From the IMG/VR virus record IMGVR_UViG_3300044987_000827, positions 1 to 39,792 of that record: a DNA stretch of 39,792 nucleotides. The stretch is one strand, 5' to 3'. The notes under the pieces were generated by a model. That model was not told the origin of the DNA. It saw only the letters and a list, made by a program, of their open reading frames with translations, and did not search any database. This document shows, in pieces, positions 8,009-39,675 of this stretch; the first letter of the stretch is position 1; every line of letters begins with the position of its first letter. This DNA is from a virus. The translations under genes were made by a program, and so were the position numbers.

Positions 8009-8566
8009 ATGGCGAAAATAATTTGCGGAATTTATTATATAAAAAACAATATAAATAATAAGATGTATATAGGTCTATCTATTGATGTTGAAGCTAGAAT
8101 TAGAAGGCATATGAAAGATTTGAAAGTAGGGGTTCACCCCAATGTTTACCTTCAGAGAGCTTGGACTAAATACGGAAATGAAAACTTCGAATTTGGAATT
8201 TTGGAAGAATGCGATAAAAGTAAACTGGCAGACAAGGAAATTTGTTGGATAGCTTATTATGATTCTTATAATTCTGGATACAACTCAACAATTGGTGGGT
8301 ATGGGACAAAATCAATAAACGAAGAAGGTAAGATTAAGAAAGCTCTCTCTAGGGAAGGTAAGAAACTTCCAGAGTACATGATTATTAAAAAATTGAAGAT
8401 ATTGTTATATAATTTGAGGTCGCATTGTCTTTCAACTTACGGGTTAAGTTTTGAAGATTTTAAAATAAAAGACAATAAGACTAAGAAACAATTGAGGGAT
8501 TTAAAAAGATTTGAGGGATGGGTTGATGAATTAGAGATTATGAGAAATATTTCAGCACAAGATTAA
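8009..8566 (+). CDS. GIY-YIG homing endonuclease
   Basis: A 185-residue protein. Residues about 5-90 form a GIY-YIG nuclease domain: GIYYIKNNINNKMYIG (the GIY and YIG elements), R27-like arginines in ARIRRHM, and E at ADKEICWIAYYDSYN with N in GYNST. The remaining C-terminal half is basic and probably binds DNA. ATG 8009 follows AAGGA by 13 bases, a long gap that hints at weak translation, common for homing genes. It lies about 1.7 kb after the group I intron, so it may be the intron's mobility enzyme acting from outside; that is inference. Confidence 0.88.
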   Translation: MAKIICGIYYIKNNINNKMYIGLSIDVEARIRRHMKDLKVGVHPNVYLQRAWTKYGNENFEFGILEECDKSKLADKEICWIAYYDSYNSGYNSTIGGYGTKSINEEGKIKKALSREGKKLPEYMIIKKLKILLYNLRSHCLSTYGLSFEDFKIKDNKTKKQLRDLKRFEGWVDELEIMRNISAQD

Positions 8567-8837: not shown

Positions 8838-8851
8838 AAGAGGTATTTTAT
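8834..8851 (+). promoter_or_regulatory. dyad element ATAAAA-N6-TTTTAT, copy 3
   Basis: ATAAAA 8834-8839, centre GAGGTA, TTTTAT 8846-8851, flanked by ACG and GA as in copies 1, 2 and 4. Here the centre contains the GAGGT ribosome binding site of the next gene, and that gene's ATG (8850) starts within the right arm, so an RNA hairpin would cover the initiation site. Confidence 0.55.
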
Positions 8852-9185
8852 GAGAGACATGGTTTTAACAGATGAATTTGTAAAAGAATTTTCTGAACAT
8901 TCGAGAATGACACAAAAGGATGTTAGGTATTTCTTACAAAGTTTAGGTTCATTCATAGACCTCTGCATAGATGAACAGGTTTCATTTAAAACAAATGTAT
9001 TTGAGTTGTACTACTCTGAAATGAAAAGCAGGGAAACTAAGATGTTTGGTAAACTACCACCTACCCGTAAGGCTAGGGCGAGATTGGCAAACAAATATAG
9101 AAACAACCAAAAATCGCAGAGTAAGATTTACAGAACAGTTTTAGAGAAAACTGAGGCTGAACAGACCTTGACAGAATTCGAATAA
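8850..9185 (+). CDS. possible HU/IHF-like DNA-binding protein
   Basis: A 111-residue basic protein. MTQKDVRYFLQSLGSFIDLC resembles the helical body of HU/IHF proteins, VSFKTNVFELYYSEMKSRE the start of their beta arms, and LPPTRKARARLANKYR a basic arm-like stretch, but the canonical GRNP is absent. I offer this as a weak fold guess. The start ATG 8850 uses GAGGT in the dyad element. Its 3' end contains the -35 box of the promoter of the noncoding RNA region. If the guess is right, it would bend or coat phage DNA. Confidence 0.6.
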   Translation: MRDMVLTDEFVKEFSEHSRMTQKDVRYFLQSLGSFIDLCIDEQVSFKTNVFELYYSEMKSRETKMFGKLPPTRKARARLANKYRNNQKSQSKIYRTVLEKTEAEQTLTEFE

Positions 9186-9196
9186 TGTGATAAACT
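9168..9196 (+). promoter_or_regulatory. SigA-type promoter for the structured RNA locus
   Basis: TTGACA at 9168-9173, 17-bp spacer ending TGTGA (extended -10), TAAACT at 9191-9196 (four of six matches). It points into a stretch of about 440 bases that holds no gene, with a predicted transcription start near 9203. Confidence 0.68.
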
Positions 9197-9202
9197 TATT
9201 GA

Positions 9203-9600
9203 AATTGGGAGATATGAGCCAAGCGGTTAATTATTGAACCCGTAAGAGGAAACTCATTCTCATAACATTTTTAGGGGGAAATTCTAAAATTTTAATTCTT
9301 TACTTTGTGGGCTGAGGATGTTCACTATTTCTTCGGCGTGATGTAACTTACGGCAATGCTACCGAAGGCAACCGTAAAAATTAGACAGCGAGTAAACCGC
9401 GCATCTAGACCCACTATTTTAGCCTCCATAGTTCAATTGGGAGAATTCCCTGCTTCTGCGGGGAAGTGAGAGTTCGAATCTCTCTGTAGGCTCATGTACC
9501 AGTCATAACTTTAGAAACTTTAAAAGGTGGATTAAACGGGTTGACGAGAAAACAGACTTTATTGGTAAGAGGACTGGTACAATTATTTTAAAATTTAGCA
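9203..9600 (+). ncRNA. candidate ornate structured noncoding RNA containing a tRNA-like element
   Basis: No gene fits between 9186 and 9627, yet pairings are dense. Domain I: GAGATATGAG (9209-9218) with CTCATTCTC (9253-9261), nine pairs and one bulge, enclosing GGTT/AACC (9225-9240); then TTTTAG/CTAAAA (9269-9289). Domain II: GTGGG..CT..GATG (9307-9320) closes with CATC..AG..CCCAC (9402-9414); inside, CTTCGG (9331-9336)/CCGAAG (9362-9367) and TTACGG (9348-9353)/CCGTAA (9372-9377) interleave as a pseudoknot, next to GCG/CGC (9388-9400). Then the tRNA-like element, then domain III closed by a perfect 10-bp stem TGTACCAGTC (9495-9504)/GACTGGTACA (9572-9581). A dedicated promoter precedes it. GOLLD and ROOL RNAs are known phage-linked, tRNA-adjacent large RNAs, but those I remember are longer; ends and family are unproven. 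Confidence 0.65.
9422..9492 (+). tRNA. tRNA or tRNA-like element, anticodon arm abnormal (UCU-Arg if functional)
   Basis: Acceptor GCCTCCA pairs with TGTAGGC (one mismatch), D-arm GTTC-AATTGGGA-GAAT, and a textbook T-arm GAGAG-TTCGAAT-CTCTC, so the tRNA fold is clear; no CCA is encoded. The middle arm is odd: CCCTG (9448-9452) pairs with CGGGG (9459-9463) leaving only six loop bases (CTTCTG), and the pairing can extend to eight pairs with a TTCT loop. Read with U33 at 9454 the anticodon is TCT, which would decode AGA, the dominant arginine codon of most genes here. It may be a working, degenerate or purely structural element. Confidence 0.6.
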
Positions 9601-9627
9601 ATACAGAAACTTAGGAGAAACAAAATA

Positions 9628-10587
9628 ATGACTGTCGTATGCCCTGTTTGTGATAGTGAAGATGTAATCAGTAGAGGATATTTAACAAGAAAACCAACTG
9701 GCGAGAAGTATGCGAAAAGATTTCATTGTGAAAATGACCATTCCGATTATGTTGACGAGAACGGGAATGACCATAGTTGGTTTAGCGTTCCTTTAGAGTT
9801 TAGTGTTGAAAAAAACAAGAACGCTCCGAAGATTTTGATTTTTGATATTGAAACTCAAATCAAGAAAGCAAACTTATTTAGACATGGTAAACAGTATGTA
9901 AACGCTTCTGCTTTTGAAGACTACGACTCTATGATTTGTTGGTCTGCAAAATGGTTGGGTGACAATGAAGTTTTCGGAGATGTTTGTACATCTAAGGAAG
10001 CAAAGGCTAGAGACCATAGTAGAATTACTAAGTCTTTATGGGATGCAATGTCTCAGGCGGCTTTTACGATTTCCCACAATGGTATCTATTTTGATTTGCC
10101 TATGGTAAACACTTTCTTTGTTGAAAACAGGTTGGGTCTTCCTAACTTATTTAGAAATATTGATACTTGCCAGATTGCAAGAAAAAACTTTAGATTTGAA
10201 TCTAATTCTCTCGATTCTCTTTGTAAGAGATTGGGGATTAATGATGGAAAGATTGACACAGATATTGACCTTTGGCTCAATTGCTACAAGGGAGACCAAG
10301 AAGCATTGGATTATATGTTCAAATATAATCAGATGGATGTTACAGTTTTGGAAGATTTGTATAATGTATTTCTCCCATATATTCCAAGTTTCCCAAATAT
10401 GGGAATCTGGGGTGATGTGAAAGAAGCGAAGTGTCCTTATTGTGGTAGTACGAATTTCAAGGAAAAGGGCTACAAGTACACCCCATCTGGTAAATACATT
10501 TCTTATCGTTGTGAGTGTCAGGCGTTATTCCGAAGTAAAGAAAACTTGTTATCTAAAGAATTCAAGAAATTGCAGATGATAACGTAG
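9628..10587 (+). CDS. DEDDy 3'-5' exonuclease-like protein flanked by two zinc ribbons
   Basis: 319 residues. Residues 5-50 form a zinc ribbon (CPVCDSEDVISRGY ... HCENDH). Residues about 65-260 are an RNase H-fold exonuclease: D73 and E75 in FDIET (ExoI), D156 in HNGIYFDLPM (ExoII), and Y233/D237 in YNQMD (the DEDDy type of ExoIII). Residues about 275-305 form a second ribbon (CPYCGSTNFKEKGY ... CEC). It resembles predicted exonucleases related to the PolB proofreading domain found in phages. Substrate, DNA or RNA, is unknown. TAGGAGA precedes ATG 9628; a strong terminator follows. The two similar ribbons (CPxCxS...GY) may be an internal duplication around the catalytic core. Confidence 0.82.
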   Translation: MTVVCPVCDSEDVISRGYLTRKPTGEKYAKRFHCENDHSDYVDENGNDHSWFSVPLEFSVEKNKNAPKILIFDIETQIKKANLFRHGKQYVNASAFEDYDSMICWSAKWLGDNEVFGDVCTSKEAKARDHSRITKSLWDAMSQAAFTISHNGIYFDLPMVNTFFVENRLGLPNLFRNIDTCQIARKNFRFESNSLDSLCKRLGINDGKIDTDIDLWLNCYKGDQEALDYMFKYNQMDVTVLEDLYNVFLPYIPSFPNMGIWGDVKEAKCPYCGSTNFKEKGYKYTPSGKYISYRCECQALFRSKENLLSKEFKKLQMIT

Positions 10588-11635: not shown

Positions 11636-11794
11636 ATGTCAGAAAACACTGAACATATAGATGAGATATTTTTTGAACTATTTAGTGAAATTTTACGAGA
11701 AAAAGATAGTAATCAAAATAAATCTCGTAACTGGTCTGTTTTGAACACCGAGTTAGAGAAAGTATTTGCATATTATAAAACATATTGCGAATAA
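11636..11794 (+). CDS. small acidic hypothetical protein (52 residues)
   Basis: A short gene starting two bases after the previous stop, with AAAGGA six bases before ATG. MSENTEHIDEIFFELFSEI suggests an acidic amphipathic helix; the C-terminus is aromatic (VFAYYKTYCE). No motif recognised. It lies directly upstream of a VSR-type homing endonuclease. Confidence 0.5.
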   Translation: MSENTEHIDEIFFELFSEILREKDSNQNKSRNWSVLNTELEKVFAYYKTYCE

Positions 11795-11852
11795 GAGATT
11801 GGAATCTATTGATAGGTTATTTTTAATTAGACATACTTTTTTGAGGAATAGG

Positions 11853-12758
11853 ATGGGAAAATTTACAGACTTGATTGGGTTTAGATTTGGAAGACTGCTT
11901 GTTTTATCCAGAAAAGAAAACAGTAAAAACAATAAGATAACTTGGGAATGCCTATGCGACTGCGGTAAGAAAAAAACTATATTGGGAGCAAGTCTTTTAA
12001 ATGAGAGAACTGTTTCTTGCGGGTGCTATTCTAAAGAAGCGACAAGAAATTCCAATCTGATAGATATTTCAAATATTAAATTTGGAAGACTTCTAGCTCA
12101 AAAATTTGTAGAAATAAGAAAAAACAAAGCATATTGGGAGTGTATTTGCGATTGCGGAAATATTGTTGAGGTAAATGTTGGTGGGTTGCAGAGCGGAAAC
12201 ACAAAATCTTGCGGATGTTACAATAAAGACTCATTGATAAGTAGAAAGATAAATCTTATTGGAAGAGTGTTTGGAAATTTGACTGTTTTAAAAGAATCGG
12301 GGAGAGATAATAACAATAAAATAATGTGGTCATGTGGGTGTTCTTGTGGAAACATTGTTATTGTAAGAGGGAATCATCTGGTGAGAGGGATGATAGTTTC
12401 TTGTGGGTGCAACAAAGAATCTATAATCGCATCAAAACTTAAGGAATATTTTAAGAATAACCATCAATCTATTTCCGAATACAGGGTATTTGTAAATCCA
12501 AAAACAAAATATACTCTCCCATATGACATCTATATTCCCGAAAATAAAATTTTCATAGAAATAAACGGGGTTCAGCACTATGAATTTATAGAATTTTTTC
12601 ATAAAACAAAAGATGGCTTTTTGAAAATGAAGAATCACGATAAAATGAAAAAGAATTATGCTATGAAAAATGGAAGATATATCACGATTGATTTAAGGAA
12701 GAAAGAAGATTTAAGTTCTATTATAAGTAGAATAGAAAAAATAATAAAATCTTCTTAA
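11853..12758 (+). CDS. VSR-type homing endonuclease with three zinc-binding repeats (no. 1)
   Basis: 301 residues from ATG 11853 (GAGGAATAGG upstream). The first two thirds hold three copies of a module: GRLLVL..., then W-x-C-x-CDCG (third copy W-x-C-G-CSCG), ending T/V-x-SCGC, about 60 residues apart, a zinc-binding DNA-reading repeat known from phage homing proteins. The C-terminal domain has LPYDIYIPENKIFIEINGVQHY and KMKNHDKMKKNYAMKNG, matching the VSR-like EDxHD endonuclease fold of the I-Bth0305I type. It would cut an intronless target and spread by homing. It is free-standing, followed by a terminator and the PhoH-like gene. Confidence 0.85.
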   Translation: MGKFTDLIGFRFGRLLVLSRKENSKNNKITWECLCDCGKKKTILGASLLNERTVSCGCYSKEATRNSNLIDISNIKFGRLLAQKFVEIRKNKAYWECICDCGNIVEVNVGGLQSGNTKSCGCYNKDSLISRKINLIGRVFGNLTVLKESGRDNNNKIMWSCGCSCGNIVIVRGNHLVRGMIVSCGCNKESIIASKLKEYFKNNHQSISEYRVFVNPKTKYTLPYDIYIPENKIFIEINGVQHYEFIEFFHKTKDGFLKMKNHDKMKKNYAMKNGRYITIDLRKKEDLSSIISRIEKIIKSS

Positions 12759-17474: not shown

Positions 17475-17503
17475 TTGACAAAATCATTAAAACGTGGTAA
17501 TAT
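17475..17503 (+). promoter_or_regulatory. SigA-type promoter for a short RNA
   Basis: TTGACA 17475-17480, 17-bp spacer ending CGTGG (extended -10), TAATAT 17498-17503 (four of six). The seven bases AAACGTG just upstream of the -10 also occur in the promoter at 1006-1034. Expected start near 17510. Confidence 0.7.
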
Positions 17504-17509
17504 GAAAGT

Positions 17510-17577
17510 CCCCAAGAAGTTAGAGATGCAACTCGAAAAGTGTCTGCTGAACACCTGTTCTTGGGATTTTATTTTTT
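17510..17577 (+). ncRNA. candidate 68-nt small RNA or attenuated leader with its own terminator
   Basis: The transcript expected from the promoter at 17475 begins at the left arm of a hairpin: CCCAAGAA (17511-17518) pairs perfectly with TTCTTGGG (17558-17565), followed by ATTTTATTTTTT. Between the arms are two small hairpins, GTT/AAC (17519-17532) and GTGT/ACAC (17540-17554), giving a three-way junction. Promoter, body and terminator are nearly back to back with no reading frame, so this is either a stand-alone small RNA or a leader that terminates before the next gene unless refolded. No known family is recognised. Confidence 0.6.
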
Positions 17578-17607
17578 CAGCACTATTGACAGCTAATAGG
17601 AGAAATA

Positions 17608-18555
17608 ATGGGTCACGGTGAAACGAGATTTAGTTTAGATTTTGTTGCAAGTTCTTTTGCCGAAGAGGGGTATTTACTTCTCAGTAAATCTTATAAGAAT
17701 AATGTTCAAAAATTAAGAGTTAAACATTTGAAGTGTGGAAGTATATTTAAAATAAAGTTCGTTGATTTTAGGTTGAGAAATACTAGATGCCATGAATGTA
17801 GTAAAAATGTTAGATACACCATAAATAGCATTGGTAAAATATGTAAAAAACTCGGATATGAAGTATTATCTTTGGAATATAAAAATTCTAAAACACATAT
17901 GAAATTTAGACACAAAGAATGTGGAAAAATTTTAATTAAGACTTGGGGTTGTTTTTATAGGGGTAATCAAAGATGTTCCGACTGTAGAAAAGAAGAAAGA
18001 AGTAAATTCAACCGCGAAAATAGAGTAAGGGCAAAGGGTTCTTTATTTAGTTTTTACCCAGAAATATCTGAAAGTTGGTCTATAAAGAATGAAGACTCCC
18101 CGGATATGTACACCCCTTATTGTGATACGAGAGTTTTTTGGAGTTGCCCAAAAGGACACCCCGATTATTTAGCGTCAATTGTTTCCAGAACTAGGGCTGG
18201 TACAGGATGTCCTGTTTGTTCTGAATCTCAGGGAGAAAAAAGAATAAGGAAATTCTTTGAAAATAAAAACATATCTTTTATTTCACAAAAGAGATTTGAT
18301 ACCTGTAGAGATAAACAACCACTCCCTTTTGATTTTTTTCTTCCAGATTATTCGTTGTGTTTAGAATACAATGGGATTTTTCATTATAAGACAATTAGGG
18401 ATTTTACTTCAAAATCTGACCTAAAAGACAGGAAGAAAAAAGACAAGATAAAGAAAAAATGGGCTATAAAAAACGGATATAGATTTATAGAAATCCCATA
18501 TTGGAAATTTGAAAACATAGAAGAAATATTGACAGAAGAATTAAATATAAAATAA
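17608..18555 (+). CDS. VSR-type homing endonuclease with zinc ribbons (no. 2)
   Basis: 315 residues. Repeated C-x2-C modules (HLKCGS ... RCHECSK; RHKECGK ... RCSDCRK) precede a DUF4379-like zinc ribbon (SCPKGHPDYLASI ... GCPVCSES). The C-terminal nuclease has PLPFDFFLPDYSLCLEYNG followed by FHY and RKKKDKIKKKWAIKNGYRF, the VSR-like EDxHD fold. It resembles the gene at 31354. It is inserted between the terminase and portal genes, a typical intronless-homing position. Its start has AGGAG upstream, but the terminator of the small RNA lies just before, so expression depends on read-through. Confidence 0.85.
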   Translation: MGHGETRFSLDFVASSFAEEGYLLLSKSYKNNVQKLRVKHLKCGSIFKIKFVDFRLRNTRCHECSKNVRYTINSIGKICKKLGYEVLSLEYKNSKTHMKFRHKECGKILIKTWGCFYRGNQRCSDCRKEERSKFNRENRVRAKGSLFSFYPEISESWSIKNEDSPDMYTPYCDTRVFWSCPKGHPDYLASIVSRTRAGTGCPVCSESQGEKRIRKFFENKNISFISQKRFDTCRDKQPLPFDFFLPDYSLCLEYNGIFHYKTIRDFTSKSDLKDRKKKDKIKKKWAIKNGYRFIEIPYWKFENIEEILTEELNIK

Positions 18556-39211: not shown

Positions 39212-39675
39212 CTTCTGGGGACAGAAGATTAAACCAACTAGAAGAAAGATTTACCAGAACGGAGGATAAGGTCATGCAACTGGATAAGAGCATCGCCGTT
39301 TATTCTGCTATTTTTGAAAGAAATTTACAAATTCAAGAAAAATTATCCACAGCTATAGATAGACTAACTGAAACAACTAGCGGACTTCAAAGAACTTTGA
39401 TTGGTGTGTTGCAGGATATTAAAAGAAACGCTGAAGCACAGGAACAAAATTCAATGAAAATCGGTGAGATAGAAGTAGCCACTGATAAAAAGATAAATGA
39501 ACTGGAAACAAAACTGCATGGTAAATTAGAAACCTTAGATGTAAAATTAAATACGGTTGACGACAAGGGAAAATTTGACTTCATCAAATTTCTAAAAGAA
39601 AACTTCATCTCCGTCACGATGTTTGTATATATTATAGTAGATGGAGTAAAAAGCTATTTGCAGGTGGCTAAATAG
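39196..39675 (+). CDS. coiled-coil protein with C-terminal membrane helix (holin-accessory-like)
   Basis: 159 residues. A long coiled coil (residues 8-125: LNQLEERFTRTEDKVMQLD, KIGEIEVATDKKINELETK) followed by a single hydrophobic segment (FISVTMFVYIIVDGVKSYL) and a short tail. This layout, helix bundle plus one C-terminal membrane span, resembles XhlA-type hemolysin/holin-accessory proteins. It would sit on the inner membrane face. It starts inside the previous gene without a close ribosome binding site, so coupling is likely. A structural coiled-coil role is the alternative. Confidence 0.65.
   Translation: MGEEITSGDRRLNQLEERFTRTEDKVMQLDKSIAVYSAIFERNLQIQEKLSTAIDRLTETTSGLQRTLIGVLQDIKRNAEAQEQNSMKIGEIEVATDKKINELETKLHGKLETLDVKLNTVDDKGKFDFIKFLKENFISVTMFVYIIVDGVKSYLQVAK

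Follow-up and report, generated by a model that had tools for sequence, protein, structure and literature searches.

A candidate structured RNA leader around an apparently exchangeable tRNA, upstream of the exonuclease gene of an SPbeta-related phage

In the window, by which we mean the whole stretch of 39,792 bases of a virus record that was analysed, positions 9186-9627 make up a noncoding stretch of 442 bases that carries no gene. The question raised by this locus is whether it encodes a structured phage RNA, as the initial annotation proposed, and what such an RNA could do for the phage. Judged from the genome sequence, the source is an uncultured SPbeta-related phage: its terminase and the protein encoded at 4425-7289, a YonO-like single-chain RNA polymerase (for YonO see PMC5467207), are related to those of SPbeta-group phages. 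The locus has the following parts.

9168-9196, plus strand: promoter, TTGACA (9168-9173), 17 nt, TAAACT (9191-9196), with extended TG
9207-9414, plus strand: 5' structured domain
9422-9493, plus strand: Arg(UCU)-like tRNA gene, recognized by ARAGORN and by Rfam RF00005
9495-9597, plus strand: 3' structured domain, directly before the exonuclease gene
9628-10587, plus strand: downstream gene, DNA polymerase exonuclease subunit (phrog_403, E 2.4e-69; RNase_H_2)

Between the stop codon at 9185 and the start codon at 9628 there was no open reading frame of at least 60 amino acids, in agreement with the about 440 gene-free bases noted initially, and the SigA-like promoter claimed ahead of them was also found. 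Its -35 box overlaps the last part of the upstream gene. The window contains 7 such promoters with an exact TTGACA, somewhat above the 2.3 expected from shuffles. The promoter at 9168 is credible because four TTGACA-N17 extended -10 promoters, at 1006, 3212, 9168 and 17475 of the window, have counterparts at matching, syntenic places of a related phage (3547, 6709, 13561 and 22034; one of them TTGACT), and transcription is expected to start near 9203. The upstream gene (8850-9185) encodes a 111-aa protein, which occupies the place of the HU-like protein in SPbeta-group relatives and looks HU-like by eye; it matched no Pfam or PHROG family.

The related phage, IMGVR_UViG_3300031521_000228 (G001; loci L002, L105 and L106), was the single relative found in the viral collection. 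It has the 111-aa gene (64% identity), the promoter at the same place, a noncoding stretch that holds a tRNA, and the gene of the exonuclease, whose sequence is 83% identical to that of the window over residues 61-319. Because a further locus, L109, is 99.99% G001 and thus the same phage, there are two lineages in total. It must be noted that all comparative evidence comes from two independent sequences, those of the window and of G001 (L002), and it is this comparison of two genomes that yields the layout, the conservation and the covariation described below. The two phages share a common plan of promoter, 5' domain, tRNA, 3' domain and exonuclease, with the same order and spacing.

From the window sequence alone an ornate RNA could not be established. 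In folding energy the region as a whole does not stand out (z -0.65; of 100 shuffles, 27 did equally well), and the at least five helices that had been taken as a sign of ornateness correspond to chance: there are five perfect helices of at least 6 bp within 60 nt, and shuffles average 5.2. The interleaved pair (CTTCGG/CCGAAG with TTACGG/CCGTAA), which the initial annotation read as a pseudoknot, does exist in the window, but such a pair occurs in 42% of the shuffles, and the insert that holds it is missing from L002. A stem of 10 bp or more is found in about 5% of the shuffles of the region, and nine perfect 10-bp stems occur across the whole 39.8-kb window. As the energy, the helices and the interleaved pair are all at chance level, comparison was needed. 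These same values are what would be expected if the locus were just a common tRNA gene flanked by protein genes and its hairpins were incidental, but that explanation has to face the compensatory changes and a constraint that, before and after the tRNA alike, far exceeds the one on synonymous sites, and we regard it as extremely improbable.

The tRNA-like element noted initially is a tRNA gene by both programs, with an RF00005 score of 45.8 bits in the window and 68.6 in L002 (gathering score 29). The window tRNA has an anticodon loop of 6 nt, CUUCUG, one base short of 7 (the anticodon was assigned by inspection), and no encoded CCA, whereas the slot in L002 is filled by a clean tRNA-Gly(UCC) with a normal anticodon loop. 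With this short loop and low score the window tRNA may not be charged; the loop may reflect decay or damage, a special role, or a sequencing error of one base. The most telling feature of the locus is that the identity of the tRNA is swapped, Arg-like in one phage and Gly in the other, within flanks that are kept, so that these flanks do not depend on a particular anticodon. That the RNA recognizes its tRNA in the manner of a T-box was considered and is unlikely, since the tRNA identity changes and the flanks do not. In 18 large genes of the window, Arg is encoded most often by AGA and Gly by GGA, so both tRNAs fit codon supply.

The strongest evidence comes from the 3' domain, which begins with the long stem.

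9495-9504/9572-9581, plus strand: perfect 10-bp stem enclosing a conserved 67-nt loop
9582-9597, plus strand: U-rich tract after the stem, AUUAUUUUAAAAUUU in the window and UUUACUUUAAAAUAU in L002 (by inspection)

The perfect 10-bp stem with arms 67 bases apart, already noticed in the initial annotation, held up well in the comparison: all ten pairs are kept in L002, four of them through compensatory double changes, and none is broken, while in slid controls pairing was found in 25-42% of the cells. With two sequences the shuffle control for this stem can only reach 28/500, therefore we consider the covariation strong, though short of overwhelming. Between the phages, the loop blocks AUAACUUUAGAAAC-YUUAAA, GUUGACGAG and AGACUUUAUUGGUAAGAG are identical at 46 of 47 positions, as compared with 46-48% of the fourfold-degenerate codon sites in the flanking genes; what is constrained is thus the nucleic acid as such. 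On inspection the domain is not protein-coding, the open frame of the window being broken by an indel and a stop in L002.

In the window the stem begins within 2-3 nt of the 3' end of the tRNA. In gut phages this is exactly the place of theta (HDV-like) ribozymes, which adjoin the 3' ends of tRNAs (PMC10879173). The 3' domain resembles them in that it is structured and follows a phage tRNA on its 3' side, and it has a highly conserved unpaired core. It could accordingly be imagined as a theta-like, self-cleaving ribozyme that trims the 3' trailer of the tRNA. It differs from theta ribozymes in that no HDV-like nested pseudoknot was found: our own, crude descriptor of a nested double pseudoknot with a catalytic C before P2' gave 0 matches in both phages, and no ribozyme family was matched in Rfam. 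We hold such a ribozyme to be very improbable.

The U-rich tract has 6 U in 8 positions in both phages and follows an A+U-rich 10-bp stem with a 67-nt loop; together they possibly form a weak terminator, although a terminator scan of the window called no standard terminator at 9581.

The 5' domains of the window and of L002 are homologous on the strength of their global alignment, the score of which (30.5) was equalled by 0 of 500 shuffles (-35 plus or minus 8.7). They share, in this order, the elements GGGAGA, UCAUUCUCA, GGGGGAAAUUC, UGAGGAU and AUCUAG, and the helices are placed as follows.

9209-9218, plus strand: 5' arm of P1, GAGA-U-AUGAG, pairing with 9253-9261
9253-9261, plus strand: 3' arm of P1, CUCAUUCUC
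9274-9284, plus strand: conserved GGGGGAAAUUC, identical in both phages
9307-9321, plus strand: 5' arms of P4 (GUGGG, 9307-9311) and P5 (GGAUGU, 9316-9321)
9322-9400, plus strand: variable insert between the P5 arms, about 79 nt against about 20 nt in L002
9331-9336/9362-9367: interleaved helix CTTCGG/CCGAAG, inside the variable insert
9348-9353/9372-9377: interleaved helix TTACGG/CCGTAA, inside the variable insert
9401-9414, plus strand: 3' arms of P5 (9401-9406) and P4 (9410-9414), conserved AUCUAG

P1 has 9 bp in both phages, with one compensatory and one one-sided change. P4 and P5, between the 5' arms of which UGAG is conserved, show one compensatory change each; the P4 arm of L002 was set by inspection at 3536-3540, a second UUGGG not being the arm meant. 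The covariation in homologues suggested as a check was thus seen, in the sole homologue, in the 3' stem, P1, P4 and P5. A fold with P1, P4 and P5 together is 3-4 kcal/mol less stable than the minimum. There is also a tentative long-range helix, 9223-9228/9395-9400 (3477-3482/3567-3572 in L002), which keeps its pairing through three double changes; in L002 it competes with P5, and its joint chance of about 0.003 applies before allowing for the fact that it was picked after a search.

Positions 9255-9262 can pair with 9313-9320 instead of taking part in P1. This 8-bp alternative is possible at the homologous place in L002 too, and may be a lead to a switch. It could mean that the region is a cis-regulatory switch, in which the 3' or the 5' domain responds to a factor and, as an attenuator or antitermination element, decides on read-through into the exonuclease operon; in the 5' version 9255-9262 would pair with either 9209-9218 or 9313-9320. 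The difference of under 4 kcal/mol between the two folds, the U-rich tract after the 3' stem, and a second promoter of the same phage (17475) that also precedes a conserved, terminator-like leader are in line with this idea. On the other hand, the alternative pairing is invariant between the phages, hence covariation lends it no support, the ligand or factor is not known, and the A+U-rich 3' stem with its very long loop is unlike a standard terminator and was not called by the scan, thus we consider a switch rather unlikely.

Maturation of bacterial tRNAs involves cutting at the tRNA ends by RNase P and RNase Z, and in Firmicutes structured 5' ends slow 5' exonucleolytic decay. In our preferred reading, to which we assign a probability of roughly one half, the region is a phage-specific RNA leader consisting of the 5' domain, the tRNA and the 3' domain before the exonuclease, from which the tRNA is excised. 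The host sigma-A polymerase would transcribe the leader from about 9203, the tRNA (9422-9493) would supply a codon heavily used by the phage, and RNase P and RNase Z would excise it. Excision would free the 5' domain (9207-9414) as a separate small RNA, and the exonuclease message would now begin with the 3' stem, which might protect the message or conditionally terminate it. The processing by RNases and the role as cap or terminator are what we infer; against them it can be said that the conserved 67-nt loop exceeds the needs of a simple cap.

Instead of being a leader, the region might encode an independent structured RNA, noncoding and about 390 nt long, in which the tRNA is one module and which ends at the 3' stem and the U-tract, a particle or scaffold RNA of GOLLD-like layout; the exonuclease would then be expressed by read-through. 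GOLLD, which is often longer than 800 nt and assembles into a 14-mer cage, has a conserved 3' region, a less conserved 5' region and sometimes tRNAs in the linker (PMC12286853). The likeness lies in the layout only: the present RNA is also phage-encoded, and it has a promoter of its own, a 5' domain that is less conserved, a linker with a tRNA in it, a strongly conserved 3' domain closed by a stem, and a U-rich tail. However, with about 390 nt, and 442 nt between the flanking genes, it is less than half the size of GOLLD, it shares no sequence or model match with it, its fold is no more stable than those of shuffles, and the distance of only 30 nt to the Shine-Dalgarno region of the exonuclease gene suggests a leader. 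A stand-alone RNA is improbable in our judgement.

The kinship with GOLLD or ROOL supposed in the initial annotation did not find support. In Rfam scans of the region in both phages, at gathering scores and with E up to 10, the tRNA alone matched, and GOLLD was absent at gathering score from either whole record. ROOL, about 660 nt long with its own conserved fold (PMC12286853), is similar in being a phage RNA near tRNA genes, and differs in that it gave no model match and that the tRNA lies inside the present RNA. Of the structured phage RNA proposed initially, what stands is a promoter-driven, conserved region around a tRNA with a long 3' stem, without the relationship to GOLLD or ROOL and without the pseudoknot. 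Two other cases can be likened to it by description only. The stable RNAs C and D of T4, a phage of another group, are small structured RNAs co-transcribed with phage tRNAs and are not known to have a particular function. The HK022 put RNA, a lambdoid antitermination element of known structure (PMC9378689), is likewise a structured RNA close behind a phage promoter and before an operon.

The tentative idea that we are dealing with a new class of phage RNA goes further than the leader. It would be a tRNA cassette made of two conserved domains with an exchangeable tRNA between them. The 3' domain, whose 67-nt loop hardly varies, would be active itself, either by self-cleavage or by binding a factor that controls the replication operon; we think this doubtful. 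It is usual to regard phage tRNAs as genes that stand by themselves. At this locus the tRNA seems to be exchangeable and the structured flanks are strongly constrained, which points to a role of the flanks in release of the tRNA or in control of the exonuclease operon. If confirmed, the locus, being smaller than GOLLD or ROOL, would offer a compact system in which to study why phages put tRNAs inside structured RNAs.

Beyond G001, the searches of viral contigs, genome contigs, phages and plasmids yielded no holder of the RNA. Blastn with the window region against phages and plasmids gave no further homologue, the best matches of the L002 region in phages fell on annotated tRNA-Gly genes, and protein scans with the exonuclease, the 111-aa protein, the terminase and the portal led to no further holder. 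Apart from those in G001, all matches of the 3' loop DNA patterns in viral and genome contigs were chance matches, with neither the second block nor the stem. With a covariance model of the 3' domain, run over related loci and 18 records, nothing else scored well; a weak match at 39518 (E 2) was rejected as chance. The RNA element is, as far as these comparisons go, real but so far very rare and lineage-restricted.

Some other features of the phage may be mentioned. A group I intron at 6050-6275 (RF00028, 38.4 bits, E 1.5e-8; below the gathering score of 50) splits the gene of the YonO-like RNA polymerase (4425-6053 plus 6276-7289) exactly at the codons of the catalytic DFDGD motif; in G001 this gene is uninterrupted. 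The one 40-kb record also has four free-standing homing-endonuclease-like genes, HNH and GIY-YIG, at the following places of the window.

489-998: homing-endonuclease-like gene
8009-8566: homing-endonuclease-like gene
11766-12758: homing-endonuclease-like gene
17608-18555: homing-endonuclease-like gene

The second conserved promoter, at 17475, is followed by a leader (17475-17600), which had no Rfam match and in which about 66 nt, reading CCCAAGAA...UUCUUGGGAUUUUAUUUU, are identical in G001. This leader contains a terminator-like stem with a folded loop, and its UGCUGA could pair with UCAGCA located after the U-tract, which makes it a candidate attenuator or switch.
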